Assembly: GCF_022867795.2 (NCBI RefSeq)
Contig: NZ_CP107006.1
Span: 3,410,001 to 3,474,000 of the forward strand
Source: Chitinophaga horti
GTDB taxonomy: Bacteria; Bacteroidota; Bacteroidia; Chitinophagales; Chitinophagaceae
DNA length: 64,000 bases
Direction: 5' to 3'
Under the pieces are notes generated by a model. It ran no database searches and was not told where the DNA came from. It was given only the letters and a program-made list of their open reading frames with translations. The position numbers and the translations under genes were made by a program. Shown here piece after piece: positions 5,931-59,972 of this stretch (position 1 is the stretch's first letter; the number at the start of each line of letters is the position of its first letter).

Positions 5931-6867
5931 ATGCAAAGAATATATATCGCTATCATTTGTCCGCTGCTAATTTTACTGGCGGCCTGCAGTAAAGACAGCT
6001 CCCCTGCACTGCTGCCGGAAGGAAGCATTTCTTTCAAACTATCGGAAGGTAAAGACACCATTGAAATGCCTTTATCTATCCTGAAAGATTCAGCCGTTGT
6101 ACTGAAGTTACAAGCTGCCTTTACCGGCAGCACGTCCGGCAACCACTGGATCACCTTCGCGATAGACACCACGAAGATCCGCGACTACCGCGCTAGGTTT
6201 GGACAGGGCATACTGGTTCCTGCACCGCACTACCTGTTCTTTAAGTCCAACGTGCGGTTGTCTGCCGGCGCTACGGAGTCCGACACGGCGCAACTGAACA
6301 TTGGCCAGCAAACGAAGCTGATGGAATACAGCACTTATGTATTACCGATCGTCATACAATCCGTGGATGGCGAGCCGGAAGGCGCTGCTTCCGGAAGAGT
6401 GATCTATTTTGTATTTAAAACCGGCAAACCTTTATTCATCAATAAACAGGGCTGGACGATCGCGGCATTTACGTCGCAGAACGGCACGAACGCACCAACC
6501 GGCTTGCTCGACGAAAAACAACCTGACTACCTTTTGGGCCAGTAACATTACGCAGTTCATGCCGCAGAGCGTTACGATCAACATGAACAGGGAGGTGACT
6601 TTTACCGGGTTGAATTACTACCTGCCTACGGTACTGAACTACCCTAACCTTGGCGGCTATCCAACCTCTATCAAAATAGAAACCAGCATGAACGGTACTA
6701 CATGGACAGACAAAGGCACATTTGCCGGGAACGTCAGCAACAACATGCAGTCCATTCTCTTCGGGCAAACCACGGCGAGGTTTGTGCGCTTCACCGCGCT
6801 GGCCAGCGTAAAATACAGCAACACCTATGACGCCATATTTATCAGCGGTATCGGCCTGCTGCCTTAA
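5931..6867 (+). pseudogene. DUF1735 + F5/8 type C domain lipoprotein, frameshifted as read
   Basis: Two reading frames make one protein. 5931-6545 gives a lipoprotein signal (LAACSKDSS; Cys about 20) and a DUF1735-type beta-sandwich (FKLSEGKDTIEMPLSI, then TYVLPIVIQSVDG). The other frame continues to 6867 with a discoidin (F5/8 type C) domain: [35 protein letters not shown]. Removing one A from the A5 run at 6514-6518 turns DEKQPDY into [11 protein letters not shown] and yields 311 residues. The intact product would be a surface ligand-binding accessory protein for the SusCD pair just upstream. Either the gene is inactivated or the base call is wrong. The domain join is so exact that a recent or artefactual one-base event is the best reading. 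Confidence 0.85.
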
Positions 6868-6895
6868 CCATTAAAAAACATAGAAAACATACGCA

Positions 6896-8026
6896 ATGAA
6901 AACGAAATTCATGTTGGCAGCGGCCTGCTGCCTACCATTCAGCCTAATGGCACAAAAAGGCTTCACCGTGCGCGGTAAAGTAGGTACGCAAAGCGCTCCT
7001 GCCATTGCTTACCTGGAATACTCCGATGCGGGCGTAAAGAAGAAAGATTCTGTACTGCTGAACAAAGGCCAGTTCGTGATCAAAGGCAAAGTAAGTCATC
7101 CCGTGATGGCTTACCTCACCGTTAAACATGATACGGCTGCCGCCAAACCTTACCGGAGCGACAACACCCAGTTTTACCTGGAAAATGCAGACATCACCGT
7201 TACCTCTCCCGACTCCGTATACCGCGCGGTAGTTAAAGGATCGCGCACCAATGAGGAAGAGGCGATGTTACGCAGATGGCAACGTCCATATAAAAAATCG
7301 GCCGACTCAGTTACTAAGGCATACTACGCCCTCACACCAGAGCAGCGTAAAGACGAAGCATTCCTGAAAGACTTACGCGTTGTAATGGCTGCTACGCAGG
7401 CCGGTTACGACAGTGTAAACCGCGCTTTCATGAAAGCCTATCCGGCATCGTTCATTTCGCTGAATGTGTTCAGAGAAGTAGAACTGGCCTACAACTTTAA
7501 CCCGGATACTGCAGCTGCGCGTTTCGCCAGATTACCGCAACAAGTGCGTAACTCTTATGCAGGAAAACAAATTCAGAAAGCCATCGATACCGGGAAGAAG
7601 ACCAACCTGGGCATGATGGCGATGGACTTCCAGCAGAACGACAGCACCGGCAAACCGGTGAAGCTCTCCGACTTCCGCGGTAAATATGTACTCGTTGACT
7701 TCTGGGCATCGTGGTGTAAACCGTGCAGGGCAGAAAATCCGAACCTGCTGGTGGCTTACAATAAGTTCAAGGAAAAGAATTTTACGATCCTCGGCGTATC
7801 ACTTGACGATGAAAAAGCCCGCAGGGCATGGCTGATGGCCGTTCAGCAGGACAATATGCCCTGGACGCAGATCTCCGACCTGAAAGGCTTTAAATCCGAA
7901 GCAGCCGTGATGTATGGCGTGAATGCTATTCCTACCAACTTCCTGGTAGATCCCAGCGGTAAGATCGTAGCCCGCAACCTGCGCGGCGACGACCTGCAAA
8001 AGCAACTGGCCGTATTGATCAAATAA
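6896..8026 (+). CDS. TlpA-like thioredoxin family protein with N-terminal DUF4369-like domain
   Basis: 376 residues. A signal peptide (ending SLMAQ, about residue 19) is followed by a beta-rich DUF4369-like domain (about 20-120: FTVRGKVG, VLLNKGQFVIKGKV), a helical linker, and a TlpA/AhpC-type thioredoxin domain (about 235-375). The redox motif is WCKPC (Cys274, Cys277) in the context VLVDFWASWCKPC; the cis-proline region is NAIPTNFLVDP. Expected to be a periplasmic thiol-disulfide reductase facing the cell envelope. It is the last gene of locus A, 28 bases after the lipoprotein, and is followed by a strong terminator. Locus C also ends with a TlpA protein before its metalloprotease. The substrate thiols are unknown. 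Confidence 0.93.
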   Translation: MKTKFMLAAACCLPFSLMAQKGFTVRGKVGTQSAPAIAYLEYSDAGVKKKDSVLLNKGQFVIKGKVSHPVMAYLTVKHDTAAAKPYRSDNTQFYLENADITVTSPDSVYRAVVKGSRTNEEEAMLRRWQRPYKKSADSVTKAYYALTPEQRKDEAFLKDLRVVMAATQAGYDSVNRAFMKAYPASFISLNVFREVELAYNFNPDTAAARFARLPQQVRNSYAGKQIQKAIDTGKKTNLGMMAMDFQQNDSTGKPVKLSDFRGKYVLVDFWASWCKPCRAENPNLLVAYNKFKEKNFTILGVSLDDEKARRAWLMAVQQDNMPWTQISDLKGFKSEAAVMYGVNAIPTNFLVDPSGKIVARNLRGDDLQKQLAVLIK

Positions 8027-8048
8027 CCCCGGGTTAACTATTAAATGC

Positions 8049-8081
8049 AAAGGGCTGACCAACACGTTTGGTCAGCCCTTT
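8049..8081 (+). terminator. Rho-independent terminator of locus A
   Basis: A 14-base-pair perfect stem (8049-8062 with 8068-8081) encloses a 5-base loop and ends in a T-rich side, 23 bases after the TlpA stop. The rest of the gap to 8290 shows no gene or recognisable site. Confidence 0.85.
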
Positions 8082-8289
8082 ATCGTTAAGGCGATTTTCA
8101 AAGCCTTCAGGTTGCTTTTTGGTTGATCCATTTGATTTTATTAGACGAGCGGCCGGGCGTGGGTGTGATCAAGCTTAACCAGATCGAGAAAAGTTGAGCG
8201 ACTTCACGACTGGCAAACTGGCCTTTTGGACGGATAATAACTCCGGCGGTTCGTAGAGGAACATCGAACCTGATCCGGCCAAATCACAG

Positions 8290-9294
8290 CTATCCGCGGA
8301 ACGTAGACTTCCGTTCGATCAGTCTCGATTGCAATACTACGTCCCCTTTCGCACTTCCTTTTTTGCGGATGATGCGCAGCAATTCGCGGGCGGCGGTTTC
8401 ACCGATCTCGAAGGCCGGCTGAGTAATAGTAGTCAGCGATGGATTGAGCAGCGCTGCTGTTTGCAGGTTGGAGAAGCTGATGACCTTAATATCTTCCGGG
8501 ATTTTTACATTGGCCTGTTCGCATACGCGGTAACAGATCACCGCGAGCTTTTCTACCGACGCAAAAATGCCATCCGGCTTTTCGGCCAGCAGCATGTTGT
8601 GAATGGCGGCAAAGGCCTCGTCGTTGTTATTGGGACACTCTACTACGAGCGGCGTTTTCTGTTTGGAATATTTCTTCAGCGCCTGCAGGTAACCATTCTT
8701 ACGGATGTTACCTACCGGGATGCTCTTATCCACTTTGAGGTAAGCGATCTTTTTACAACCTGTGTCGATGAGATGTTTGGTGGCCGTAATCGCGCTTTCG
8801 TAATTATCAGACGTCACCTTCACATTATCCATACGCTCACTCACGCGATCGAACAGTACCAGGGGAATACCCTTATCGTTCAATTGGGCCAGGTGTTCGT
8901 TGTCGTTACTTTCATCGGTAATGGACAACAATACGCCATCTACCCGGCCGTTTACCAGTGTATTAATAAATGACACCTCCAGCGCATGGTCGCCATGCGT
9001 AAAGTAAAGGAGAATATGATACCCCTGTGCCTGCGTTACCTTTTCTATCCCACTGATCACCAACGAAAAGAAATCATTTACCATGTCCGGGATCACGACG
9101 GCGATCATTTTGGTTTCCTGGGCGCGTAATCCGCTCGCATTTGCATTCGGTTGATAATTTAATCGCTTCGCCAGGGCAAACACCTTTTCCTTCGTTTCCG
9201 GGCTGATTTCATGGCTGTCCCTCAATGCGCGTGACACCGTGGAAATGGCCAGGTTCAGCTCCTTCGCCAGGTATTTTATGTTAATCTTGTTCAT
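8290..9294 (-). CDS. LacI/GalR family transcriptional regulator
   Basis: 334 residues from the ATG at 9294; a GTG four codons earlier (9306) is the alternative start. N-terminal helix-turn-helix: INIKYLAKELNLAISTVSRALRDSHEISPETKEKV shows the LacI recognition helix (STVSRAL) and hinge (LNYQPNANA). Residues about 60-330 are a periplasmic-binding-protein-like effector domain (MIAVVIPDMVNDFFS, GRVDGVLLSI, PLVLFDR). It is transcribed away from the SusC at 9703. A perfect 16-base palindrome typical of this family lies between them at 9355-9370, so it probably controls both itself and locus B in response to a small sugar-like ligand. The effector is not identifiable. Confidence 0.95.
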   Translation of the reverse strand: MNKINIKYLAKELNLAISTVSRALRDSHEISPETKEKVFALAKRLNYQPNANASGLRAQETKMIAVVIPDMVNDFFSLVISGIEKVTQAQGYHILLYFTHGDHALEVSFINTLVNGRVDGVLLSITDESNDNEHLAQLNDKGIPLVLFDRVSERMDNVKVTSDNYESAITATKHLIDTGCKKIAYLKVDKSIPVGNIRKNGYLQALKKYSKQKTPLVVECPNNNDEAFAAIHNMLLAEKPDGIFASVEKLAVICYRVCEQANVKIPEDIKVISFSNLQTAALLNPSLTTITQPAFEIGETAARELLRIIRKKGSAKGDVVLQSRLIERKSTFRG

Positions 9295-9354
9295 CAATCC
9301 GCTCACATTATAATACTATTCCGCTTACTATTACACGTATAATTTACGCTTTTA

Positions 9355-9370
9355 ACGGAAACGTTTCCGT
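9355..9370. promoter_or_regulatory. LacI-type operator palindrome
   Basis: Perfect 16-base palindrome ACGGAAACGTTTCCGT with the central CG pair typical of LacI/CcpA-family operators. It sits 61 bases upstream of the lacI-type ATG and about 330 bases before the SusC ATG. The remaining 9371-9702 stretch of this 400-base gap shows no convincing gene; it should contain the SusC promoter and a long leader. Confidence 0.75.
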
Positions 9371-9702
9371 AAAAAAACGCTAAAAGCACTGTACTTTTTC
9401 CTAAGTTAACCGCGGTTTTAGCTATTCCACGGTAAAAAATGACATGTTGCAAACTACTACTTATATGAAAATAGAACAAGAATCGACCAGACACTAAATC
9501 GGTATTGCTGTATATCCTCTGGTTAAAGTGAATGGATGATGACTTATGTGAACGACTGCCAATGACAAGGCAGCCTACACCGTGCATTTCGCACACATGA
9601 CAACTAAAGTTTTATTTGCCCACCGGGTAAGGGTTCTTTATGCCTAGACCAACCAGGTGACCACGTTTTTAAATCCTTAATCACTCATTGAATTATCACG
9701 CT

Positions 9703-12567
9703 ATGAAAAGATCAGCCTCAAGCAAGGCCTTGCTCAAGTACCATCTGTATTTGAGAGCTTCCATCGGGGTCATTATTTGCCTGTGCCTATCGCTCGCTGC
9801 CAATGCGCAGAAGCCAGACAGTTCCAAGACTATCAGCACCTTTAATGGTAAACAGCTGTTCCAGGAAACGACGGGCGCTTTTTCGCAGATCCAGGGCAAA
9901 ACGGTAGAGAACGTGCCCATCATTAACAATCTTAATCGCATGCAGGGCATGTTGCCAGGCCTCTTCCTGATGCAGAACAACGGGGAGCCGGGCGACGAAT
10001 CAGCCTCGCTGCAAATGCGCGGTAAACGCACGTTCAGAAGCAATACGCCGATCGTATTAGTCGACGGCTTCGAAAGAAGCATGGACCTGCTGGACCCGAA
10101 CGAGATCGAAAGCATTACGTTGCTGAAAGATGCTGCTGCCACCGCGCAGTACGGTCTTCGCGGCGGTAATGGCATCATCCTCGTGACCACCAAACGCGGA
10201 GCAGAGGGTAAGATCAAAATTACCTTTAACGCACGCGCCGGGGTAAAAGCACCAACTACTACGCCTAAACTGCTCAACTCCTTCCAGTACGCTACGCTGT
10301 ACAACGAGGCGCTCGCCAACGACGGCGCAGCTCCAAGGTACTCAGCAGCCGACCTGGAGAAGTACCAGAATGCCACGAAGGGCATCTACGAGAACGAGAT
10401 GGACCGCTACCTCTATCCCAATATCAACTGGTACGACCAGTACGTGAACGAGTCTACCTGGCAACAGCGTTACAGCGTGAACGTACAGGGCGGCAACAAA
10501 AATGCCCGTTACTTCCTGTCTGCAGGTTACACCGGCAACAGTGGACTGTACAAAGTGGATAAAGCGGCTAACACTTACAACACCAACGCAGACTTCAATA
10601 TGATCACCCTGCGTTCGAACATAGACGTAAACGTGAACAAACGCTTCAGCCTTACGCTGGACCTGGCGGGCCGCCAGGAGCAGCGTACCTATCCGGGCGA
10701 GCGTGGCGATGCGGCCCTGCGTGTGTTCCGTACGTTATATAAAACACCGCCTAATGCCTTCCCGGTGCTAACCCCTGATGGTAAACTCGGCGGCAGCAAA
10801 GACTTTCCTGCCAACCCTTACGGTTTGCTTAACAAAGAAGGCTACTCGCTGTACTATGTGCGCAGCATGTTCGCCACTTTACGCGGTAAACACGAGCTGG
10901 ACTTCATCACACCGGGCCTTTCTATCACCGGTACCGTAGCGTTCGACAGCTGGTACGATATGGTGACTAACCGTAGCAAGGACTTTAAAGTGTACGACAT
11001 TCGCCAGCCAAGCGGTACGGTGGAGTACAATCCGGACGGCAGCATCAAGTACATAGAAACAGGTACAGATACGCAGATGTCTTCCGGCGTTGAATATCCA
11101 GGTACCCGTCGTATTCTTAACTACGAAGGCGCACTGAATTACCAGCGCACGTTTGGTCTGCACGCGATCACTGCCGTTGCAGCTATCAACCAGCGTATCA
11201 TATCCTCCGAGAACAATACCGATATTCCCCGTGCTTACCTCGGTTCCAACGGCCGCGTGTCGTACGCTTACAACAAGCGTTACCTGGCCGAGTTTAATTA
11301 CGGCTTCCAGGGCTCCGAGCAGTTTTTGCCAGGTAATAAATTCGGCTTCTTCCCGGTAGGTTCTTTGGGCTGGGTAATCAGCGAAGAAGATTTCCTGAAA
11401 GATAACAAGTGGGTAAACTTCCTGAAACTGCGTGGTTCCTATGGCATTACCGGCAACGATGATGTGGGTGGTTACTTCCTGTGGTTCCAGAAATACGCTA
11501 CTGCAGGCGGTACCAACTTCGGTTACACTTCTACCGGCTACAACGGTTTCCAGGAAACGGCTTTTGCACTCAACAACGTAACCTGGGAGAAGATCCGCAA
11601 AACGAACGTAGGCATCGATGCGACCTTCCTGAACAACAAACTGAACGTAACGTTCGACTACTTCTACGAGAAGAACCAGGACATCATGATCCAGCCCGGG
11701 CTGCCTTACATCATGGGCATCCGCTTCCCTGACTTCCCGATCGGTGTAATCGAGAACAAAGGCTTTGACGCATCGTTGCGTTACACGCAGCAGGTGGGTG
11801 ATGTAGAGCTGTCGTTCCTCGGTAATGTAAGCAGCGCGAAAAACAAAGTGATCAACCGTGGCGAAGAAAAACCGCGTTACGATTACCAGGCACGCACCGG
11901 CAGACCACTCGACGGTATCTACGGTTTAGAGGCCATGGGCCTTTTCCGTGACCAGGCAGAAATTGATGCAAATCCAAGACAAACGTTCGGGCAGGTAAAA
12001 CCTGGCGACATCCGGTATAAAGACCAGAACGGTGACGGAGTGATCGATGCTTATGACGAAGTGTTTCTTGGTCAGGGCGGCTTCCCTACCCTGCAATATG
12101 GTCTGGGACTGGGAGCTAAATTTAAAGGCATCGACCTGAGCGTATTGTTTACCGGTCATGACGGCAGCCAGATGGGCCTTACCGGCGAATCTATCTGGGA
12201 GTTCCACGATAACGGTACGGTACGTGATCATCACCTGGGCCGCTTTAACCCGGAGGATGAATCTACCTGGGACAATGCCAGCTATCCACGCCTCTCCCTC
12301 GCTAACAAAGCGAATAACCAGCGTACATCCACTTACTGGCTGCGCGATGGTAAAATGGTGAGACTTAAAACCGTGGAGTTAGGCTACACCCTGCCGGCAA
12401 GCTTTGCTAAGCGGATAAGGCTGGAGAACCTGCGTGTGTATGCAAGTGGTTACAACCTGGCTACCTGGTCGTCAACCGGCCTGGTAGATACAGAAGCCCG
12501 TTCCGGCCACTATGTACTGTATCCTATTCAGCGCATTATCAATGCCGGTGTGACTGTAACGTTCTAA
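9703..12567 (+). CDS. SusC-type TonB-dependent transporter lacking the N-terminal beta-sandwich domain
   Basis: 954 residues from the ATG at 9703 (a TTG 15 bases earlier is less likely because the ATG gives a normal signal peptide). The signal peptide ends about residue 36 (AANAQ). Unlike the other SusC proteins here there is no carboxypeptidase-like domain: the plug begins almost at once (about 45-165: RMQGMLPGLFLMQNNGEPGD, LVDGFERSMDLLDPNE, ITLLKDAAATAQYGLRGG). The 22-strand-type barrel follows, with the late SusC motif GDIRYKDQNGDGVID and a C-terminal VTVTF. First gene of the LacI-controlled locus B; SusD follows after 12 bases. Confidence 0.94.
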   Translation: MKRSASSKALLKYHLYLRASIGVIICLCLSLAANAQKPDSSKTISTFNGKQLFQETTGAFSQIQGKTVENVPIINNLNRMQGMLPGLFLMQNNGEPGDESASLQMRGKRTFRSNTPIVLVDGFERSMDLLDPNEIESITLLKDAAATAQYGLRGGNGIILVTTKRGAEGKIKITFNARAGVKAPTTTPKLLNSFQYATLYNEALANDGAAPRYSAADLEKYQNATKGIYENEMDRYLYPNINWYDQYVNESTWQQRYSVNVQGGNKNARYFLSAGYTGNSGLYKVDKAANTYNTNADFNMITLRSNIDVNVNKRFSLTLDLAGRQEQRTYPGERGDAALRVFRTLYKTPPNAFPVLTPDGKLGGSKDFPANPYGLLNKEGYSLYYVRSMFATLRGKHELDFITPGLSITGTVAFDSWYDMVTNRSKDFKVYDIRQPSGTVEYNPDGSIKYIETGTDTQMSSGVEYPGTRRILNYEGALNYQRTFGLHAITAVAAINQRIISSENNTDIPRAYLGSNGRVSYAYNKRYLAEFNYGFQGSEQFLPGNKFGFFPVGSLGWVISEEDFLKDNKWVNFLKLRGSYGITGNDDVGGYFLWFQKYATAGGTNFGYTSTGYNGFQETAFALNNVTWEKIRKTNVGIDATFLNNKLNVTFDYFYEKNQDIMIQPGLPYIMGIRFPDFPIGVIENKGFDASLRYTQQVGDVELSFLGNVSSAKNKVINRGEEKPRYDYQARTGRPLDGIYGLEAMGLFRDQAEIDANPRQTFGQVKPGDIRYKDQNGDGVIDAYDEVFLGQGGFPTLQYGLGLGAKFKGIDLSVLFTGHDGSQMGLTGESIWEFHDNGTVRDHHLGRFNPEDESTWDNASYPRLSLANKANNQRTSTYWLRDGKMVRLKTVELGYTLPASFAKRIRLENLRVYASGYNLATWSSTGLVDTEARSGHYVLYPIQRIINAGVTVTF

Positions 12568-12579
12568 AATTTATCAGAA

Positions 12580-14382: not shown

Positions 14383-14393
14383 AAACTAAGCAG

Positions 14394-17474: not shown

Positions 17475-17501
17475 TCAACGGACCACGAAAAAAACTAACA
17501 G

Positions 17502-38787: not shown

Positions 38788-41700
38788 TTACCTGAAATTC
38801 CGCGCCTGCGGAAACACAATTTCCTGCGCGCTTTCACGCACCTGCGTTCTTTTGTCCTGGCTCGGAAAGTCTGGCAGGGGCTTTTCATCAGCACGCGCGA
38901 GGGTGAGAACATTGGGATCTTTTTGCGAGGAATTGAGCAGGCGTAATAGTTTAGAAAGATCGTAGCAACGTTTAACGACGACGTGAATTACTTCGCCTTC
39001 GCGTTGCAATTTACCTTCTACCATGAGCAGGCGGGCATGCAGGATCTCTTTGCGATATTTTTCGAAGAGACTTTCAAACACCACGAGGTTGGCGGTGCCT
39101 GTTTCGTCCTCAATCGTCATAAAACATACGCCGCCGGCAGTTCCCGGGCGCTGCCTGACCAGTACGAGGCCGGCAATTTTCAGCGGTGTGCCATTGGGAA
39201 TACTGAACAAATCACGGGCAGATACGATATGCAGTTGCGTGAGTTTCTCTCTTACAAAACTTACCGGATGGGCTTTGAGGGATAGGGATAAGCTCGCATA
39301 ATCTTCTACCACATGTTCGGATAGCTGCATGGCGGGCAATTTTACCGGCTGCTCCTCCTCTCGCTGACCAGTGAATATACCGTTCGGGCGTCCTTCCCGG
39401 ACAGACACGGCCCATAGCGCCTGGCGGCGGTCGAGGCCCATCGAACGAAAAGCATCTGCATCGGCCAGCTTTTCCAAAACCGGGGTGGTCATGCCGACAT
39501 TGTGCATCTCATCGATACTGGTATAACCTTCACCACGATGCGCTGTGAGCAACATCGCATCTTCCTGCCGCATGCCCTTTATCTGCCTGAAACCAATGCG
39601 TAATGCAAAATAGCGGCCGTGCATAGGCTCAAGCGTATTATCCCACATGGAGTGATTTACATCTGCCTCCCGAACTTCCACGCCGTGCCTTCTCGCATCG
39701 ATCACGATTTGAGCGGGTTGATAAAAACCCATCGGCATACTGTTGAGTAAGGCGCAGGCAAATACATCCGGGTAGTGGCATTTTATGTAGCAGGAAACGT
39801 ATACCAGCAATGCAAAACTGGCAGCATGACTTTCCGGGAAGCCGTAACTACCAAAGCCTTCCAGCTGTTTGAAGATGCGTTTAGCGAAATCAAGTTCGTA
39901 ACCGTTTGCCAACATCCCTAAGACCAGTTTTTCTTCGAACTGACTGACCAAACCTTTCAGCTTAAAGGTCGCCATGCTACGACGCAACGCATCCGCCTCG
40001 GACGGCGTAAACCCGGCCGCCTGTATCGCAATGTTCATCGCTTGTTCCTGGAAAAGGGGGACGCCTAAGGTTTTCTTCAGGATACTTTCCAGTCCGGGAG
40101 GATAGTCGACCGGTTCCTCCTTATTACGCCTGCGCAGGTAAGGATGCACCATATCACCTTGTATAGGGCCGGGACGAACGATCGCCACCTCAATCACCAG
40201 GTCATAAAACACCTTGGGTCTTAAACGCGGCAACATCGATTGCTGGGCGCGGCTTTCAATCTGGAACACACCAATCGTATCCGCGCGGGAAATCATTTCA
40301 TACACCTCATCATCATTATTCGTAAACCCAGCCAGCGTCCATGTTTTTTTATGATGTTGTTTTCCCAGGTCGAAGGCTTTGCGGATGCAGGTGAGCATGC
40401 CCAATGCCAGCACATCTATCTTCATAAATCCTAAGGCATCAATATCATCCTTATTCCATTCGATGCAGGTACGATCTTCCATGCGCGCATTCATGACCGG
40501 ACACAAATCAATGAGTTTGCCCCTCGTGATCACGAAACCGCCGGTATGCTGCCCTAGCTGCCGCGGAAATCCCATAAACTGCGCAGTGAGGTCCAGTATT
40601 TTATGCAAGTGCTTATCCCCCGGGTCCAGACCTTGTTCTGATATCCTTTTTCTTCGAACCACTCGTCTGTATATTGCCAGATGCTGCCAGACAACCTGTT
40701 GATCGCATCTACCGACAAGCCCATCGCCTTGGCTACATCCCTGAGTGCGCCCTTTTGATGTTGTTGCGTAACCGTTGCAACGATTGCAGCACGATCGCGG
40801 CCATATTTATGATAGATATATTGGATCACCTCTTCACGGCGCTCATGTTCGAAGTCAACATCAATATCCGGGGGCTCATTGCGGGCAGATGAAATAAACC
40901 GTTCGAACAACAGATCGATCTGCGTGGGATCAACCGACGTGATACCCAAGCAGAAACAAGCCGTGGAGTTCGCGGCAGAGCCACGTCCCTGACAAAGAAT
41001 GCCTTGCTCACGGGCGAAGCGCACAATATCGTAGACGGTGAGAAAATAAGATGCATAATTCATCCCCTCGATGAACTTCAATTCATATTCGATGGCCTGC
41101 GCCACCTTTGTGGGCAGCTCTTTACCGAAATGCCGATGCGCACCTTTCCAAACCTGGTAAGTCAATTCTTCCTGCGGAGTACGGCCTTCGGAAGTAATTT
41201 CTTCCGGGTATTCATACTTCAGTTCATCCAGCGAAAACGTACAGGCATCTGCGATCTCTGTTGTTCGTTCCAATGCCTGCTGGTAAAGGCGGAACAGGCG
41301 TTCCATTTCAGGAATGGGTTTCAGGTATCGTTCTGCATTGGGATGAAGGCGGTAACCGGCATTGTAAATCGTACACTTTTCCCTTACACAGGTAAGTATA
41401 TCCTGCAACTCGCGACGTTCGGAGCAATGATAATGCACATCATTGGTGATCACCATCGGCACCTCTAATAGCGAAAGTGCATACAGGTATTTATTATCAT
41501 CCCCCTGGTAATAACGCGTAGCAGCTAGGTACAGCTGATCACCAAATATGTTACGATACTCCCTTAACGCCTGTTTAAATTCAGGCTCAAATGTAAAGTG
41601 AGCATTTAGTTTAGAGGGAGGGATGGCAATGATCTTCATGCCTTCCGCATGTTCGTACACATCTTTTTTATACAGATGGCATTCGCCTTTTTCAGCACGA

Positions 41701-41990
41701 AGATTACCTGAGGACAGCAACCGGCATAATCTTGAATACGCTGCCAGGTTGGTGGGATACACCAGCAAACTGGGGCCATCCATAAGATCGAGGCGGCAGC
41801 CTGTAATAAACCGGATGCCATTTTTTTGCGCCGCTACATGCGCACGCACCACACCTGCCAGGCTATTACGATCGGTGAGTGCAATAGCTGTATAACCGAG
41901 TACGGCGGCCTGCTCTACCAGTTCGTGCGGATGCGAGGCCCCACGGAGGAAGCTGAAATTAGACGTTACTTGTAATTCGATGTACTGCAT
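38788..41990 (-). pseudogene. dnaE2: Error-prone DNA polymerase III alpha subunit DnaE2, frameshifted as read
   Basis: Two reading frames make one 1067-residue DnaE2. The N-terminal frame (41990 down to about 40650) holds the PHP domain (ELQVTSNFSFLRGASHPHELV) and polymerase core with GRGSAANS and PDIDVDF (374-380, catalytic aspartates). The other frame (to 38788) continues with the fingers (IDVLALGML, third Asp; GFPESHAASFA) and a C-terminal OB fold. Adding one A to the A5 run (minus strand, 40651-40647) joins EWFEEK to RISEQGLDPG without loss. The start at 41990 gives the usual MQYIEL opening; the open frame to 42032 overlaps imuB and is rejected. Third gene of the imu cassette and the catalytic polymerase for damage-induced mutagenesis. 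Could be a base error, a real knock-out, or slippage on the A run. Confidence 0.9.
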
Positions 41991-42004
41991 ACTGCACGTT
42001 ATCG

Positions 42005-43609
42005 TTACGCAAAAAAACCATGAATGAACCACTGAAAAGTTCGTTCCTCATCATAGTGTCCGAGGCGGAACAGCCAGTAACGGCGGCCCAACTCGTCCTC
42101 CACGGTGTAATAGTCACGGTGCTGCCCTTGCTGCAGCCACCATTCCTGCTCGATGCGCTCTGGTCCATCGGCACGTTTGATTGTATGTAAAACGCCTTTG
42201 TACCGGAAGTTCATCGGCGGATAATCCGGGATAGGCGCGGCAACTACTATCAGTTCCGGTTGCGGTAGCAGGAGAATGGGCCTTGGCCTGTCCAGCCGCC
42301 AGGGAATATCCGGTTCCTCATGAAAAGAGGTCGCTGGTTTGACCGCCCGTTCCGGCCAGTAGTGTTCTGCCGGCAGGAAACGTTTGATCTGCGCTGCACC
42401 GAGACGTCCCGCCAGGCGGTCGAGTAACTCTGCGAGGGCGGTATCCTGCAGGCTGTTATCCTGCCGCCAGATGGCATCCTGTACATGGCTCACCTCTTCT
42501 ACCTGTGGGGCTTCGAGTACGAAGAGTTCAATGCCCAGGTCCGGACGAATACTCCGGATCTTATCTTCAAAAAGTTTGAAGATATGTTTTGCGTTATGAG
42601 ACGGCCGGTTGGTTTGCACGCCGACCGTTTCTACACGCCCATCGACACAATAACATTTCAGTTGTGCGATGCGCAGACCTTTTTCCTCATGCGTTAAGCG
42701 GTTACACATCATTGCCAGCAAGTTTTCCAACGCCATCTCGATCCCTTTGGCAGTAACGATCGGTTCGAGGCAAGGTAATCGCTCCTGGTATAATTCGGGA
42801 GAGATGACCGGCGTAATAAATTCCTGCTCGCGACCAAATGCCTGATCGAGCCGTAGCAAGGTTTGCGGCCCAAAACGTTTACGGAGCGACGTTCTTGGCA
42901 GCGCTGCGAAACTCTGTATATCGCGGAGGCCTAGTTTGTACAGGCGTTCCTGGACGGTAGCGTCTATGCGGAGTGCAGCAGGCGGCAGTGGTAATAGTGC
43001 GTTGAGATGTTCGCGGGGGCGGATAACGATTGCTCCAGGATGCACGGCGTCTCGGGCAGGCGTTGTATGCTGCAAGGTTACTGCATCCGAGACTATTGAC
43101 GCTGTATGTTTACTTGCCGTTGCCTGCTGATTCAAGTCGACACTATACCTCGCAAACGCCCATGCACTCCCCACCGTATCTGCCATAGCAGCGCACAGCT
43201 GATAACCTTTCTTGCCGAGCCTCTCCACAAGATCGTTTACGTAAGCCTGCTCGCCACCCCACAGATATGCGCAACCGGAAGCATCCAGCACAATACCATC
43301 CGGCGAATCGACTGCAGCTATTGGTGTATACCGGATACACCATTCCGCAATCCCTTTTAATAATTTATCACCTAACTCCGGCCGGTCGTCTAATACTTCC
43401 AAGCCGGATAAAATAGAACGCGCATCCGCCACTACCATTCCCACTGCTACGCCTCCTTTTTCTGCCAAACGATTAGCAGCGGTTATTACCATACGTCCAT
43501 GTACCGGCAACGCCAATACAAAAGGCATATCTTTCAACCTGGGTTGACGAAGCGTGAACCAATCCGTTTTGAGATAACGGAACCACAACGACACAAAACG
43601 CTGCTGCAT
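42005..43609 (-). CDS. imuB: Y-family polymerase-like protein ImuB
   Basis: 534 residues from ATG 43609, one base after the imuA stop; the open frame extends to 43657 but that would overlap imuA by 47 bases. N-terminal Y-family palm/fingers (RFVSLWFRYLKTDWF, RMVITAANRLAEKGGVAVGM, IVLDASGCAYLWGGEQ), helix-hairpin-helix region (KLGLRDIQSFAALPRTSLRKRFGP), then a C-terminal part. As usual for ImuB, the first catalytic carboxylates of DinB enzymes are not seen in the opening strand, so it is likely non-catalytic and serves as an adaptor between DnaE2, ImuA and the sliding clamp. Stop lies 14 bases before dnaE2. Confidence 0.93.
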   Translation of the reverse strand: MQQRFVSLWFRYLKTDWFTLRQPRLKDMPFVLALPVHGRMVITAANRLAEKGGVAVGMVVADARSILSGLEVLDDRPELGDKLLKGIAEWCIRYTPIAAVDSPDGIVLDASGCAYLWGGEQAYVNDLVERLGKKGYQLCAAMADTVGSAWAFARYSVDLNQQATASKHTASIVSDAVTLQHTTPARDAVHPGAIVIRPREHLNALLPLPPAALRIDATVQERLYKLGLRDIQSFAALPRTSLRKRFGPQTLLRLDQAFGREQEFITPVISPELYQERLPCLEPIVTAKGIEMALENLLAMMCNRLTHEEKGLRIAQLKCYCVDGRVETVGVQTNRPSHNAKHIFKLFEDKIRSIRPDLGIELFVLEAPQVEEVSHVQDAIWRQDNSLQDTALAELLDRLAGRLGAAQIKRFLPAEHYWPERAVKPATSFHEEPDIPWRLDRPRPILLLPQPELIVVAAPIPDYPPMNFRYKGVLHTIKRADGPERIEQEWWLQQGQHRDYYTVEDELGRRYWLFRLGHYDEERTFQWFIHGFFA

Positions 43610-47571: not shown

Positions 47572-47607
47572 ATACGACCCTTTCCTATGATGTTACAGAA
47601 CGCGCGC

Positions 47608-47910: not shown

Positions 47911-47983
47911 ATTGCAATCGGTTTAACTCCGCGGGGAAGTGCCATTTCTTTCCCGGGGGATTCAATTTACGACATCTGGACCG

Positions 47984-48427: not shown

Positions 48428-48548
48428 ATAGGGGATGATTGAATACTAAAAACAGGTTAACGTGAAACAGGGATACCTACAAATTAAATATAATATTTTA
48501 TGGCGGGATGTTATCTTTTTTTAAGCCAGGGGCTACGGCCTTCGCAGG

Positions 48549-48743
48549 TTAACCTTCAATCTGGGCCACACGACCTACCTGACCGTCTTCCAGCCGCACT
48601 TTAATACCGCGGGAATGATAAGGCGCAGAGGTAAGTATATCTTTTACAACACCCGGCGTCAATTTGCCGCTGCGCTGGTCTTTTTTCAGGATGATGGATA
48701 CCTCTAAACCCGGATAAATGTCTTTTCTGTACCTGCCATGCAT
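48549..48743 (-). CDS. ywbE: YwbE family protein
   Basis: 64-residue basic protein matching the YwbE family over its whole length: YRKDIYPGLEVSIILKKDQRSGKLTPGVVKDILT and PYHSRGIKVRLEDGQVGRVAQI. The family is a small SH3-like, OB-like beta-barrel of unknown function, found in many Firmicutes and Bacteroidota. Complete at both ends. It is divergent from the AraC gene, with an 88-base shared upstream region; its 120 bases of downstream sequence hold no gene. Confidence 0.9.
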   Translation of the reverse strand: MHGRYRKDIYPGLEVSIILKKDQRSGKLTPGVVKDILTSAPYHSRGIKVRLEDGQVGRVAQIEG

Positions 48744-48831
48744 AATCTTCTGAATTGATGCGGCAAATGTACTTATTTCTCCAACACGGTAAAACTCACT
48801 ATATTACTCCCAGCAACCAACCATTCAAAAG

Positions 48832-49731: not shown

Positions 49732-49734
49732 TCG

Positions 49735-50937: not shown

Positions 50938-50958
50938 CTGTTAGCGTTTTTAGGATAT

Positions 50959-52203: not shown

Positions 52204-52219
52204 AGTCTAATCTTAAAAA

Positions 52220-54145
52220 TTACCAATAAGGGTTTTGGATCAGGTTAGGGTTTACTACCAGCTCGTCGTACTTAATCGGCCAGAGGTAATCTTTCAACCC
52301 AAATACCGGCACCACTAATGTTCTTGGACGATAATACGCCTGTGGGTCGGCCTGGTAAATATCCCATCCCTGGATAGGATTGGCCAGAACCTGTTGCATC
52401 ACTTTCCAGCGACGCAAGTCCCAACCTACGCGACCTTCAAAGGCCAGTTCTATCCTGCGCTCCTGCTGGATGATCTGGCGCAAGCCATCTTTCGTATTGG
52501 CTTTGCCAGGGTTGCTGGAGTGCGTTGTCCATGATTGCACGACGCCTTGCAGTCCGGCACGTTCGCGTACCAGGTCGATATATTTATAAGCCTCGGCAGA
52601 CGGTCCGTTTACTTCGTTCAATGCTTCTGCATACAGCAGGTAAAGGCCTGCAAGGCGAATCATCGGAATACGTACAGGCACAGTAATAACCTGTTCACCG
52701 AAAACGCTCTGGTAGTTCACCAGCTTCTGCGGCCAGTAGCCTGTAACATTCACACGGATCTTATCCTTCGGACCAGCTGTAGAACTGGGACCGCGGGCAT
52801 TTACGTAAGCCATTGCTTCCACATTCTCCGTGTAAGCATTACCGAAGTAATTGCTGCCATCGAAGGAGAGGGATGAATAGAAACGCGGTTCGCGGCCGAA
52901 GTGTAATTTGGCGGTCTGATAGCCTTCGTGCATATAATATTTATCGGCAGCGGTAACCGTTTCTACACTGTAGCGGTTACGGAAGTCGAAGCTGCGGTCC
53001 TCATTCAGCGGAACACCATTCTTGGAATAAAACAGTTCGGCCATGAACAGCGGCACGGCAAAGTTGCCAGGCGCGCCACCCAAGTTGGCCACCATTTTAT
53101 CGTCCACACGCGGCATACACATGCCCTGCAGGTTAAATACCGGGTTCAGCGCCCAGATCATTTCCGGGTTCTGCTCCCACTTCTCACCGATCGCGTGGCG
53201 CAGGTCCATTACGGCTTTCAGTGGAGCAGGCAGCGCAGGCAGGTTACCTGGTGCGATGAACTTATACAGTTTTAAACCCGCCATTTCGCTGGCCTCCACG
53301 GCTGCACGACAGGCGTTTAAAGCGGTATCCCATTTAGCGGCAACATATGTTTGCGGGAACAACGGGGCTTCGCCAGGATAAGCAAATCCTGCATAATCCA
53401 CGTTACCGTTAAAAAACGGGCTTGCCTGCGTCATCAACACTTCTGCTTTTACTGATAAGGCGATCAGTTGGGTGATACGTCCCAGGCTTTGCGCGGGGTC
53501 CTGTATTACGAACGGCAGGTCCGGCGCAGCTTCGTCGAGCAGTTGCTTCACGTAGCTGAACACAGTGTCAACCGGTTCGCGCTTCAACCTTACTTCACCT
53601 GCGCCTGCCGTGATAGGCAGGTTTACACGCACTACGGGAATTGGTCCGTACATGCGCAGCAAATGAAAATGGTAATACGCTTTCAGGAATTTCACCTCGG
53701 CTATCCAGCGACGTTTTTCCGAGCTGTTCAGGTCCTTCGGTTTGTCGATGTTCTCCAGGAACAGGTTACAGCGCCTGATGGCCCTGTACAATGGCTGTCC
53801 CAGCGACTCTCCGTTCCAGTAGTTCATTACCGGCTGGTCAGATGTTTGCCTGCCTTGTATGAGGTGGAAACCTGCTTCTGCGGCATCGCTGCCGAGTGTT
53901 GGCTCCTGCAGGTCAGAAGGGAAAAATATTTCTCCCGAAGTAGTAAATGCAGGATCGGCGATTTTGTTACTCATGCTTTGCAGCGTGGAGTAGCAGGTGA
54001 ATAAGTAGTTCTCCGCCTCGTTGCGGTTGCGGAAGGCGTAGTCGATGGTCGCAACGTTATCCGGCGTTACGTCCAGGTAATCCTTGCAGGAACTGCCGGC
54101 TACCACCATCAGCACATATATCAATAGTTGTCTCGAAAATTTCAT
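52220..54145 (-). CDS. RagB/SusD family lipoprotein of locus D
   Basis: 641 residues, the longest SusD of the window. Lipobox GSSC (Cys20) then KDYLDVTPDN, the standard opening. Core region FLKAYYHFHLLRMYGPIPV (about 148-166) and ALSVKAEVLMTQASPFFNG. The C-terminal signature is RQIIQQERRIELAFEGRVGWDLRRW, and the end NPNLIQNPYW is typical. Partner of the SusC starting at 57407, from which it is separated by 11 bases. Confidence 0.95.
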   Translation of the reverse strand: MKFSRQLLIYVLMVVAGSSCKDYLDVTPDNVATIDYAFRNRNEAENYLFTCYSTLQSMSNKIADPAFTTSGEIFFPSDLQEPTLGSDAAEAGFHLIQGRQTSDQPVMNYWNGESLGQPLYRAIRRCNLFLENIDKPKDLNSSEKRRWIAEVKFLKAYYHFHLLRMYGPIPVVRVNLPITAGAGEVRLKREPVDTVFSYVKQLLDEAAPDLPFVIQDPAQSLGRITQLIALSVKAEVLMTQASPFFNGNVDYAGFAYPGEAPLFPQTYVAAKWDTALNACRAAVEASEMAGLKLYKFIAPGNLPALPAPLKAVMDLRHAIGEKWEQNPEMIWALNPVFNLQGMCMPRVDDKMVANLGGAPGNFAVPLFMAELFYSKNGVPLNEDRSFDFRNRYSVETVTAADKYYMHEGYQTAKLHFGREPRFYSSLSFDGSNYFGNAYTENVEAMAYVNARGPSSTAGPKDKIRVNVTGYWPQKLVNYQSVFGEQVITVPVRIPMIRLAGLYLLYAEALNEVNGPSAEAYKYIDLVRERAGLQGVVQSWTTHSSNPGKANTKDGLRQIIQQERRIELAFEGRVGWDLRRWKVMQQVLANPIQGWDIYQADPQAYYRPRTLVVPVFGLKDYLWPIKYDELVVNPNLIQNPYW

Positions 54146-54156
54146 ACCACTTGGTT

Positions 54157-57100
54157 TTACAGGTTAACATTAAGACCCACGTTAAACACTTTCTGTAAAG
54201 GATAGCTGAACGCGTTGGACGACAGTTCAGGATCCCAGTCCTTAAAGCGACTAAAGGTGAGCAGGTTAAGCCCGTTAAAGTAAATCCGACAATTGGTGAG
54301 ATAAGCCTTCTTCGCCAGCCTGTCAGGCAGTGTATAACCTACCTCCAGCGACTTCAGGCGCAGGAAAGCACCGTTACGCATCCACCAGGAGCTGGTTTGC
54401 AGGTTGTTGGCGATGTACTTGGTTTGAGTACCCAGGCGTGGATATTTCGCGTACAGGTCCTGGTTTTCTTCTGACCAGTGGCTGTCGGCAAACACCTGTA
54501 ATACCTGCCTGTTGTTGATGAAAGGACTTACCGCAGTTGGGTCGATAAAGAACGAGGTACGTGCGGCACCTTGCAGGAAGCCGCTTACGTCGAAACCTTT
54601 GTAACCCATGGAAATACCGGCACCATAAACAATTTCAGGCACGCTCGGCAAACCGAGGAACACCTGGTCGGCTTCAGATATTTTGCCATCACCGTTCATG
54701 TCGCGATATTTGATATCGCCGCCGCGTGGCGCGCTGTTACCGGCACCGAATTGCTGGGTGGGCGAAGCAGCAGCTTCCTTATCGTCAACGAATAAACGTT
54801 CGGCGATATAACCCCAGCGTACGTTGATTTTCTGACCGTTCAGCAGGCGCCATGGCTCTTCGTAAGCAGGCTGCTCGTAGTAACCGTACTTATTCTGTGA
54901 AAAGGTGAAGTTAGCACGACCGCTCATCCAGAAACCGTTCGTGAAGTTTTTGCTATAGTCGGCAGAAAGATCGATACCACGACTGTCAGTCGTACCCAGG
55001 TTCGCACTCACGGGCGCCTCCAGGCCGGTAGAGCCGGGAATGGACGCGCGGCCCATCAGGATGTTATACCGATGCTGCTTGTACACCTCAGCGATCACGT
55101 TCAGACTATTGAATACCGTAAACTCCAAACCTAAGTTGGTCTGGCGCGATGTTTCCCAGGTTACGTCTTCGTTCGGATAGTTGTTGATGCTCACACCTGG
55201 CCTTACCATAGCGTTATCCTGGCCAAAGTAAGCGGAGTTACCACCATTCAGGTTTACATCGGAAAGGTAGAAGAAACGTTGCGCACCGATAGCGTCGTTA
55301 CCAACGAGACCATGGCTCGCACGGACTTTCAATTTGTTCACCACTTTGGCTAAGTTATCCTGCCAGAAAGGTTCTCTCGAAATGATCCAGGAACCACCGA
55401 TGGTCGGGAAGAAACCGTAGCGGTTTTTTTCTGCGAACCTTTCTGAACCGTTGTAACCAAAGTTGAACTCTACAAAGTAGCGGCTGGCGTAGTTATACGA
55501 AGCGCGGCCCGACAAGCCCAGGTTACGGTAAGGCAGCGATAATTGCAGGCTGGCGTTACCATTCGCATCTACCGCGTTGGCGTACAAACGTTCCTGGCGA
55601 CTGCCAATGAGCGCTGCGGCTATGTTATGGTTCTTACCGAACTGGCGGCTGTAATCAATAATACCCTGGAAGTAAGCAAACGTGTTGATGTCTTTAAACT
55701 GCTCGTTCGCATTAAAACTCAGGTACTCCGTCGCCTGTCCCGGCAAGCTGTTGATCCAGTACAGCGAGTACTTATCTGCCAGGCGGTCGTACGACGAAAC
55801 CTGGTAGTAAAACGGATTGTACTTGCGGCTCAGGTCAAAGTAAGAATAGCGGTTCGTGTTGAAGATGCCTTTAAAGTTCAGGCCTTCTGTGATGAAGTTT
55901 AGTTTCTGGTTCAGCTCCAGCTGTGCGCTCATGCGGGAACGGGAGAACGACTTAAAGCCGCGCATCATTTCTGCATAAGGATTTATGAAACCAGGTGTGT
56001 TAGAGTTGGAACCTTCGGCCGTGGCGTTTCCGAACAGGATGTGGGTATTAATCCCCATCGACGGATCGGCCGGATAAAAGGCAGGGAACCTTACCGGGCT
56101 GGTATGCAGCGCCCAATAGTACAGGTCTGAGGAGAACGAGCCATCTTGTGTAATGGGACCATTGTACTCGTCGAATGTACCGGACAAACGCAGGATTGCT
56201 TCGGTAGTGGGTGTGATATTGATGTTCACGTTAGAGCGCAGCTGGTAGTTTTGCAACTTAACGTTGTTATTGAAGTCGTTCATCGGGCTTACTTTGAGGA
56301 TACCGTTGTCCACGTTGTAAGAACCACCGATGTAGTAGCGCGCTACTTTACCCCCACCGCTAACACTCGCATTGGCGCGCTGGTTATTGGTCTGGTCTTT
56401 AAACATCACATCCAGCCAATCCACTGCGGGGTACACATATGGATTGCTGCCGGGCGCATTGTTCATCGTTTGCTGCGTGAAGAAAATCTTGTTGGCACTG
56501 AAAAGTGTAGCACCGGTTACCTCACGGGTAGCGATCGCCTCGTTGTACAGTTCCATGTAACGAACGGGGTTGGCGATCTTAATATTCTGTGTTGGTTTAG
56601 AGATAGAGTTTTCTAACCTGATGTTGATGCGTGCTTTACCTTCGGCGCCTTCTTTCGTCGTAACGAGGATAACACCGTTCGCACCGCGGGCACCGTACAA
56701 TGCCGTGGCACTCGCATCTTTCAGGATAGAGAAAGTAGCGATATCGTCCACCTGTAAACGGGCGAGGTCGTTGGAGGTAAGCTCCACGTTATCTACCAGG
56801 ATGAGCGGGTCCTGCTTGTAACCGAACGTGGTAACGCCCCTTACGAAGAAGGTGGAGTTATCGAGCCCGGGCTGGCCGCTACGTTGATAGGCTACCACAC
56901 CGGCGATTTGTCCGGCGAGGGCATTGGTCAGGTTACTGGAAGGGATCTTTAATTTGCCGGGGCTGATCGTGGCCACAGAGCCAACCACAGCCTCGCGGCG
57001 TTCTTTTTTACCAAATGCAGTTACCACCACTTCAGAAATCTGTCCTTCATTAGGACGTAGTACAACAGATACCTGCCTGTTAGAAGGGTCGGCCACAAAA

Positions 57101-57407
57101 CGCCCTTCTGCAAAACCAATTGAAGATAACGCGATCACATCGCCTGCGGTTACTTCGAGCACGAATTTACCATCAGAATCGGTAGCTGTGCCTACACTGC
57201 GATCTTTGGCAATGTACACACTCACCCCCGGGATACCGGTTCCTGTGGTGTCTTTTACAACGCCTGCCACGCGAAACTTCGATGGCGACTGCGCTTGTAA
57301 GGAATGACTGAAAAAAAGCATAAGAGCCATAACAGCACGGGGCCCAGGGATAGCGGGCCGGCATGGTGGAATAGGCGTCTGGCCCAGTTGGTAGTGGGAC
57401 GATCCAT
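54157..57407 (-). CDS. SusC-type TonB-dependent transporter of locus D, signal peptide frameshifted as read
   Basis: As read, the frame starts at ATG 57330 with MALMLFFSHSLQAQ, too short to be a normal signal peptide. Another frame supplies one: ATG 57407 (MDRPTTNWARR, then LGPVLLWLLCFF) ends exactly where the SusC frame continues with SHSLQAQ. The T7 run (minus strand, 57317-57311) read as T8 joins them into a 1083-residue protein. Domains: carboxypeptidase-like (about 45-125, VAGVVKDTTGTGIPGVSVYI), plug (about 140-265, LILVDNVELTSNDL, FSILKDASATALYGARGANG), barrel with GDIKYRDMNGDGKIS and a C-terminal LNVNL. No STN domain. Likely AraC-controlled. The short tract may be a base error or an on/off switch. 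Confidence 0.9.
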
Positions 57408-57516
57408 AGCTGAAACTTTGGTTGAAACTGATTTACAATATTTCCCTGTAACCCGGGATTTCTCTATATAGCCTGACAACATAAAAGTACGCCGGGGGGT
57501 AAACGGCCGCAATGCC

Positions 57517-57540
57517 TAATCCATCGATTTTGATGGATTA
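57517..57540. promoter_or_regulatory. Inverted repeat upstream of locus D SusC
   Basis: TAATCCATC (57517-57525) and GATGGATTA (57532-57540) are perfect 9-base arms around a 6-base spacer, 110 bases upstream of the SusC ATG at 57407. This is the strongest operator-like site in the 57408-57564 gap and is a candidate target for the AraC regulator or another factor. Confidence 0.5.
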
Positions 57541-57564
57541 TTCACGGTTAGGGAGCAAATAAAA

Positions 57565-57595
57565 AAGGGCTGTGCACGCATTGTGCACAGCCCTT
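57565..57595 (-). terminator. Strong terminator of the small barrel protein gene
   Basis: A perfect 13-base-pair stem (57565-57577 with 57583-57595), 5-base loop, then T6 on the minus strand. It closes the gene at 57620-58138. Confidence 0.92.
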
Positions 57596-57619
57596 AGGCC
57601 CAATAATGGTAACAAAGAA

Positions 57620-58138
57620 TTACTTAAAGCGAATATTGTATGTGGTTCCGATACCTACCGCCTGGATATTGCTGCCATGTTCCGCGCTTCTGTAAACGCC
57701 GTTATAGAAGGCAAAGAAGTTCCAGTTGTAGTTGTGATAACCCAATTGGGGTTTAACAAAGAAACCGCCTGTATTTTCAACGGGGCCGGTAACAAGGCTA
57801 TAGCCAATATCCGTACCTACGAAGAAGCCGCTTGCCTTAGGGTACCAGCGGGCAAAACCACCCAATGGAACGGTGCCGAAGTGATCATGATCATCTTTCG
57901 GGAAGAAGTGGTTATATCCTGCGGTGAGACCTATGCCCCAGTGTGGTGTTGTCATCAGCTGGCCCTTCAGCTCTCCTCCCAGGGTAAATGCGCTTACCGG
58001 CGCCACCTCTCCAATGGGAACGCCTGCGCTGATCCCTGCTTTAAGCCATGAGTTTTTTGCGGTAATTTCTGTTGCTTCCTGGGCTGATAAACGGCCCGCT
58101 GCCAATACTAATGTTAATGCAATGATGATCTTTTTCAT
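57620..58138 (-). CDS. Small outer-membrane beta-barrel protein
   Basis: 172 residues. Signal peptide ends about residue 19 (GRLSAQE). The mature part consists of alternating aromatic and small residues in short strands (WLKAGISAGVPIG, GGELKGQLMT, WGIGLTAGYNHFFP, GFFVGTDIGYSL, NWNFFAFYNGVYRSA), typical of an eight-strand OmpA/OmpX-like barrel. The chain ends in NIRFK, close to the aromatic C-terminus used for barrel insertion. It has its own strong terminator downstream and lies 122 bases after the locus E SusD. A function beyond outer-membrane location cannot be given. Confidence 0.85.
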   Translation of the reverse strand: MKKIIIALTLVLAAGRLSAQEATEITAKNSWLKAGISAGVPIGEVAPVSAFTLGGELKGQLMTTPHWGIGLTAGYNHFFPKDDHDHFGTVPLGGFARWYPKASGFFVGTDIGYSLVTGPVENTGGFFVKPQLGYHNYNWNFFAFYNGVYRSAEHGSNIQAVGIGTTYNIRFK

Positions 58139-58207
58139 AAAGATTGCTTTGGTTACAACATCACATTTACAAACAGCGTACCAACCGTGCCGGCTCTGCC
58201 ATAAAAA

Positions 58208-58237
58208 AGCGCACCGCAGCTTTCGCCACGGTGCGCT
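58208..58237 (-). terminator. Rho-independent terminator of locus E SusD
   Basis: Perfect 9-base-pair GC-rich stem (58208-58216 with 58229-58237), 12-base loop, T6 on the minus strand, 23 bases after the SusD stop. Confidence 0.88.
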
Positions 58238-58260
58238 GGTGCTGCTTTTAGTGCGCTCGT

Positions 58261-59972
58261 CTAGTTTTGCGTCAGTACACCCTGACTACGGTCGATCTGC
58301 TGTTGCGGGATCGGGTAAATGGCATCGCTGGCATCAAAAGTGAGGCCTGCAAAGGACGAAAGTATACCGCCTTCGAAGGCTGAATAGCTTTCCAACACTG
58401 TTTTAGCGGTACCCCACCGTACGAGGTCATAGAAACGATGGCCCTCCAATGCCAGCTCCAGCCGCCGCTCGAACATCAGGGCGTTCCTGGCATAGGCTAC
58501 GTTGGCGAAGGCAGGATATTGATTTACGCGGTACACAGCGGCTGCTCCCCGTCTATCTGTTTAGCCGGCAGCAACGCCGCGCGTGCGCGGATAAGATTGA
58601 TCAGCCTTAGGGCTTCGGCCAGGTTCACCGCCGGACCGTCTATATGACACTCTGCGGCCATCAGGTATACGTCGGCCAGGCGAATGATGTTTACGTTCAG
58701 CCCGGTGATTTGCAGTGCGCCTTTCACGGCTTGCCCTCCGAACTGCTCTTTTTCGATCATGTGTTTCATGCCTACAAACGGACCAGCGTATGCCGGGTCA
58801 CGAATCCAGGCGTCGCCTTCCATCAGTCCCCAATCACGATAAGGTACGCCCCTGCGGCCTACGGTGTAATCGAGGCGGGGGTCTACCACTACGGTTTGAT
58901 CAGGTTTGAAGTTTGTTTTAGCTGCACCGGTCAAACCGTAATCGGATTTGATCGGGTTAGCGCGGTAGGTGTTGTCGAGATAAGGCAAACCTGCAGCAGT
59001 TGTTTTAAAGGCATTTACCAGGTCGAACGTGGGCTGAAAGAAGCCGCAGCAGTTCACCGGTGCATTACCGTAAAAGCCTCCTAACATGTCGCCTATGTTG
59101 GCGTTATCGCCGCTACCATCGGGGTTTACTGCGTGCTGTGCAGCAAAAATGGATTCCGGGCCGTTCTCTTTGGTTACATCGAAGTTATCGGTGAAAGGCA
59201 CTTGCGTGATCACCGGTTTGGCTGCTATCACAGTATTAAACAGTGGCAGGGCTTCCGCATATTTCTTTTGATAGAGATATACTTTGCCGAGATATGCCTG
59301 TGCTGCGAGTTTATCAACACGCCCTACTTCATTTTTAGGCTTGGCGTTGGTAAGATTGGCGATCGCAAACTGCAGGTCAGCTTCGATCTTTGGATATACT
59401 TCTGCATCGTTTTTTACCTGGGCTGCCTGTTCGGTAGTCATGGTTTCGTCGATGTAAGGCAGTTTTACGAACACCCTGCGCAGGAAAAAGTAGTAGTGCG
59501 CGCGGAGTAAACGTGCTTCTGCCTGTACTTCGAGTGCACGCGCGTCGCTGAATTTCGGACCGCTGCCCTGCTGCACCACGGCGATCGTACGCAGTACGTT
59601 ATTACAACGGGCGATGCCTTCGAAATAACGGTTCCACATTACCTCGAGGTTGTCGTTGGTACTGGTTACCTGGTATAGTTCGATCTGGTTCATATTAGGC
59701 TGGTCACCATTGTTACTGCCTTTATGGGCATTATCGGCCGCTACCTCGCCTATCAGCCACTGGCTGGGTGCGGATGCGTAGTTGCCCCAGGTGCCGCTTA
59801 CGTTGCCGTTTAACAGGCCATATGCACCAATCAGTAAACCTTCTACTCCCTCCGGAGTAGCCAGTTGTGAGCCCACCAGTTCTCCCTGCGGCGTAAGCTT
59901 CAGGAAGTCGCCGCTACAACCAGACATGACGGCCACCAGTAAAACGTAGATTGAATATTTTATCTTTTTCAT
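58261..59972 (-). pseudogene. RagB/SusD family lipoprotein of locus E, frameshifted near the C-terminus
   Basis: Frame one (59972 to 58524) gives a lipoprotein (MSGC, Cys19; then SGDFLKLTPQGELVG) with the SusD core (ALEVQAEARLLRAHYYFFLRRVF, DKLAAQAYLGKVYLYQKKYA) and stops after INLIRARAALLPAKQIDGEQ. Frame two (to 58261) continues with YPAFANVAYARNALMFERRLELALEGHRFYDLVRWG, the family's C-terminal signature. Adding one G to the G4 run (minus strand, 58550-58547) restores DGGAAAVYRVNQYP and a full 570-residue protein. As read, the last 90 residues, including the ERR-E-EL motif that packs against the core, are lost. Partner of the 59990 SusC, 17 bases away. Confidence 0.9.

Follow-up and report, generated by a model that had tools for sequence, protein, structure and literature searches.

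Four genes in a 64,000-nucleotide stretch of the Chitinophaga horti genome (the window, bases 3,410,001-3,474,000 of a single-contig genome of 6,309,489 bp) are each split by a net one-base change at a homopolymer: a DUF1735-type lipoprotein gene, dnaE2, and the SusC and SusD genes of loci D and E. These four breaks are very likely residual one-base consensus errors in the assembly, and, judging from the comparison with relatives, the genes are probably intact in living cells and the loci functional. Run lengths would have been miscalled, mostly one base too short, and then left unpolished. Unpolished run-length miscalls are typical of assemblies built from long reads only. The gene pieces and tracts, in window coordinates, are:

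5931..6545, + strand: N-terminal piece (BT_3987-like_N) of the DUF1735-type lipoprotein, Pfam match in 5931-6542
6409..6867, + strand: C-terminal piece (F5/8 type C) of the same lipoprotein in a different frame, Pfam match in 6409-6864
6514..6518, + strand: A5 tract of the DUF1735 gene, one base extra relative to 8/8 homologues
38788..40662, - strand: C-terminal piece of dnaE2 (remaining pol3_alpha, finger, HHH, OB), by Pfam
40554..42032, - strand: N-terminal piece of dnaE2 (PHP, first part of DNA_pol3_alpha), by Pfam
40647..40651, - strand: A5 tract of dnaE2, one base missing relative to 16/17 aligned relatives
54157..57330, - strand: SusC body, starting where the signal peptide ends, an open frame of 1057 residues from the first ATG
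57311..57317, - strand: T7 tract within the SusC signal peptide, one base short compared with the nearest relative, G015
57318..57407, - strand: beginning of the signal peptide of SusC, MDRPTTNWARRLFHHAG..., not in the frame of the SusC body, matching the G015 N-terminus
58261..58546, - strand: C-terminal piece of SusD, about 94 residues in a different frame, by alignment to relatives
58524..59972, - strand: N-terminal piece of SusD, 482 residues, by Pfam
58547..58550, - strand: G4 tract of SusD, one base missing relative to 11/11 homologues

The initial annotation had proposed these four splits, with one base too many in the DUF1735 gene and one too few in the other three. The tracts lie where it placed them, Pfam bears out the splits of DUF1735, dnaE2 and SusD, and homologue alignments (for SusC, the comparison with G015) bear out the direction of each change. 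The relatives' loci used here are those fetched for the best matches of each gene in genomes of the same genus, with two dnaE1-like loci excluded. The four named dnaE2 loci ranked best are all from Chitinophaga. G015 is about 66-84% identical in the proteins of the broken genes and in neighbouring proteins, and is partly syntenic with the window (a 60-kb stretch of its contig C42 matches both window ends, one of them inverted); three of the four genes (DUF1735, SusD and SusC) are all whole on that contig.

The N-terminal piece of the DUF1735 protein matches residues 7-204 of a G015 open frame of 318 residues at 66% identity, and the C-terminal piece matches the same protein at 73.5%. The two domains, whose pieces were searched separately against Pfam in the window, stand together in a single frame in G015. 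Homologues have long open frames in 8/8 loci examined, and frame-aware alignment places one event in the window gene, the extra base, against every one of them. For SusD, again with pieces searched separately, the SusD_RagB profile is matched at positions 1-195 of 297 only. The relatives have long open frames in 11/11 loci, and against all 11 the frame-aware alignment gives one event, the missing base. Its placement varies with the homologue used (58535-58556, up to about 12 nt), and the direct G015 comparison brackets the tract. Among the SusD matches listed, the open frame of one paralogue, in G045, is shorter (461 residues).

In dnaE2 the DNA_pol3_alpha profile is divided, positions 2-179 falling in one piece and 181-260 in the next. 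Frame-aware alignment gives one event, the missing base, with 16/17 homologues, at sites between 40625 and 40661 (up to about 25 nt) depending on the homologue; here too the tract is bracketed when G015 is compared directly. The remaining locus, L026 from G020, aligned over a short part only and gave no event. Long open frames of 1041-1086 residues are present in 16/17 relative loci, the exception being G020 with 556, where the N-terminal piece has no close match; this is perhaps a truly truncated copy. The corrected length of 1067 residues given by the initial annotation depends on the start codon, the first GTG giving 1081.

In SusC everything from the N-terminal domain onward stands in one frame, and no more than the beginning of the signal peptide falls in the other; the remaining 1057-residue open frame could pass as a complete gene. 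Frame-aware alignment finds one base missing with 4/11 homologues (two of those at least 12 nt beside the T7 tract) and no event with 7/11, and long open frames are present in 11/11 relative loci. We took the nearest homologue as deciding: the G015 N-terminus is MDRPATYWARRLFHQAG, the window has MDRPTTNWARRLFHHAG in its upstream frame, and the shared pattern MDRPxTxWARRLFHxAG lies in that upstream frame. The sequence as written therefore does contain the break.

Runs of at least 4 touch 7.6% of window positions, and 20.5% of positions lie within 6 nt of one, which gives a chance probability of 3e-5 to 2e-3 for four of four breaks falling at runs. Relatives allowed seven breaks to be placed, the window four and three elsewhere in the genome. 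All seven are net one-base indels (SusC on the strength of G015 and three more of the 11 homologues) and all are at runs, six at runs of at least 4, and six are deletions; at least six of seven at such runs is expected by chance with a probability of 1e-6 to 4e-4, depending on the assumed precision of the sites. The statement that the breaks lie always at a homopolymer thus holds as to site and needs a qualification as to length, since one of the breaks elsewhere, in a flavin adenine dinucleotide (FAD) oxidoreductase gene, sits at a run of only 3 in the assembly.

To set the window against the rest of the genome, 1.664 Mb of it (26%) was sampled and compared with 0.8 Mb of the relative G012. 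Homology search of arbitrary stretches against G012 yielded few orthologues, and ab initio tracking of reading frames was added. Strict same-strand frame changes numbered 23 in the 1.664 Mb and 2 in the 0.8 Mb of G012 (P=0.005, or P=0.008 when two copies of an insertion-like pair are excluded). Counts were also made at eight cut-offs over the first 1.264 Mb of this genome, and other strict cut-offs keep the excess over G012 (28 versus 4, 18 versus 1, 14 versus 0 and 12 versus 1). Several candidates of the frame tracking proved false or ordinary: those in ribosomal protein S3 and a DEAD-box helicase are glycine-rich tails, further ones are overlapping gene pairs, and two are copies of one element that resembles, by size only, an IS21-type pair.

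Of the 23 strict candidates, 21 came from a first run of the tracking and 2 from a later one; ten of the 21 were searched against Pfam. Four were divided over two pieces (a phytase, the FAD oxidoreductase and two SusD genes) and six were matched in one piece only; for one of those six, an S9 peptidase, comparison with its relative showed the gene to be split. Three genes elsewhere in the genome that are each divided over two frames are:

L157:11119-12149: phytase gene
L158:5820-7504: FAD-dependent oxidoreductase gene
L161:6815-9315: S9 peptidase gene

The FAD oxidoreductase is one base short according to 4/4 homologues used. The S9 peptidase is also one base short, a 91% identical G015 homologue placing the break at a C6 and a second homologue 18 nt off. 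A SusD gene 6 kb before the window (L118:12724-14195; genome 3,402,724-3,404,195) is one base short at a G4 in an alignment read by eye, and its G012 homologue, 77% identical, has a single frame. A homology scan, run against the other genome's genes and against own genes (coverage 290 and 364 kb here, 209 and 180 kb in G012), gave nine distinct split places here and none in G012. Five of the nine were judged clear: dnaE2, the window SusD, two other SusD genes and a place at 1,540,716 that shares its matching queries with one of the SusD genes. The other four were judged unclear. TonB plug receptors with short open frames (340-548 residues) made up 5 of 150 listed here versus 2 of 150 in G015, a weak contrast drawn from 175 and 178 candidates at first look, with G015 contig ends included.

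Several observations weigh against consensus error. The strict frame-change cut-off was picked after the candidate list had been seen, that list includes false candidates, and with loose filters the excess over G012 disappears (90 versus 64 and 71 versus 44, that is, 71 versus 80 and 56 versus 55 per Mb), presumably because ordinary overlapping genes dominate them. Run-length spectra, compared for truncation, have no sharp cut-off. Breaks are more frequent in the window (4 within 64 kb) than in the remaining sample (6 supported within 1.6 Mb); this is partly a matter of closer reading (the uniform scans recovered 2/4 window breaks) and may partly reflect local coverage, or chance, given that the window was chosen for its breaks. 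With a genome completeness score of 99.74% and both dnaE1 and mutS whole, errors must be sparse. One raw match of the SusD tail to G015 is 64% identical, against 80% before the break, a match that takes in out-of-frame residues. Finally, every supported broken gene is one that the cell could plausibly do without, a pattern that true decay would produce as well.

True, very recent decay, in which slippage at runs inactivated dispensable genes in the sequenced strain, is unlikely. Slippage favours runs; the SusC, SusD, DUF1735, dnaE2, phytase, FAD oxidoreductase and S9 peptidase genes could all plausibly be spared, and the loss of dnaE2 would be tolerable, since G009 and G016 have no close homologue of it. 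Among the supported breaks none falls in an obviously essential gene, which, at a rough expectation of about one among some ten breaks, favours neither reading. Natural decay would be expected to leave lesions of varied ages, stops and second lesions, and the pattern here is otherwise. Where a break could be placed by alignment to relatives there is one event per gene, a one-base lesion, with no second. In-frame stops in homology-covered coding sequence, counted in coding frames only to exclude shadow frames, occur at three places here and one in G012, none of them convincing: each of the four coincides with the end of the aligned partner, and by eye we took them for gene boundaries. Nor are same-frame splits in excess in the ab initio track (33 in 1.664 Mb here versus 19 in 0.8 Mb of G012). 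Constraint was compared as the identity after the break minus that before it, set against the same difference among intact relatives, in the three genes where it was measurable. The values are +8.5 versus +7.8 (standard deviation 7.1) for DUF1735, +3.3 versus +4.3 (4.9) for SusD and -0.7 versus +0.4 (3.0) for dnaE2, so no relaxation after the break was found in these three. The same breaks, the result named beforehand as one that would overturn the sequencing-error reading, were looked for in relatives and not found among the loci examined, the nearest relative being only about 66-84% identical. MutS loss would increase run-length mutation; here mutS is intact (885 residues), as is dnaE1, and the affected runs are no more than 3 to 7 bases long. 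A large number of independent losses would moreover all need to be very recent. A real and very recent burst of run-length mutations, disabling several carbohydrate-uptake genes and the mutagenic polymerase dnaE2 together, we regard as improbable; if it were real, it might perhaps have followed domestication or arisen from a slippage-prone condition in which mutS is still intact.

The two remaining explanations would make the tracts functional, and even jointly they have very little chance of being right. Phase variation commonly acts on surface receptors, and the T7 tract, among the longest runs in the window, lies in the signal peptide of one, so that length-variable tracts acting as on/off switches would concern SusC above all. 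None of the tracts is conserved, however: near the equivalent sites of the four genes the longest run is 2 to 4 in the 15 relatives, of 16 consulted, that yielded an answer. The other tracts (A5, A5 and G4) are shorter than known contingency loci require. We consider switching at these tracts extremely improbable. Programmed ribosomal or transcriptional frameshifting, which would restore full proteins from the genes as written, is hardly credible at all. Runs are slippery, and the dnaE2 A5 could physically allow a -1 slip, but the direction of the shift differs between genes and its site is not conserved, the homologues examined being single-frame without such a run.

Homopolymer sequencing error, which the initial annotation favoured, is thus the best supported explanation: relatives are intact, similar breaks lie elsewhere in the genome, convincing stops are lacking in the homology-covered genes, and mutS is whole. 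In the Homopolish (PMC8011154) and Kastor (PMC12007338) papers, nanopore assemblies are reported to retain mainly homopolymer indels that shift reading frames. Errors of that kind share with the present breaks the one-base indel, mostly a deletion, at runs of 3 to 7, giving frameshifts rather than stops, affecting several parts of the genome and leaving relatives intact. They differ in density, the breaks here being far sparser than in the older-chemistry example of Kastor, where 23.3% of genes were annotated as pseudogenes (PMC12007338). Bacterial pseudogenes likewise have interrupted reading frames in probably dispensable genes, whereas the present genes carry no second lesions, no convincing stops and, in the three measured, no relaxed constraint, and their breaks are unshared by the relatives examined. 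With phase-variable contingency loci the likeness is the one tract within a surface receptor's signal peptide; unlike theirs, the tracts here are short, and the relatives examined do not conserve them. The finding is an ordinary one.

For annotation, the four loci are best treated as probably functional, and this assembly gives no ground to infer decay, phase variation or the loss of dnaE2. Artefacts of this kind may also account for further split genes in this genome and for some in neighbouring reference genomes. The dnaE2 gene was in one piece in 16/18 named loci examined (the 18 taken from 55). It lies in five or three pieces, depending on the query, in Chitinophaga sedimenti KCTC 52590 (L055, one 6.4 Mb contig), and in three pieces in Niabella hibiscisoli (L045, contig utg000001l). 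The name of the latter contig and the single large contig of the former make both look like unpolished long-read assemblies, and gene losses in either record are not trustworthy without reads. In G048 (a single contig; C1:3645730 and 4881609) dnaE2 is in two pieces and a dnaE1-like frame has 702 residues versus the usual ~1214; the two broken frames together suggest an error-rich assembly.

Two further open reading frames were noted. Between the SusC and SusD genes of the window, at 57620-58138 on the - strand, lies one of 172 residues that has no Pfam match at E 0.001 and is 82% identical in G015. Far outside the window, an open frame of 6,433 residues begins at about base 1,430 of L156 (genome ~1,441,430), with a possible frame change near 1,441,517.

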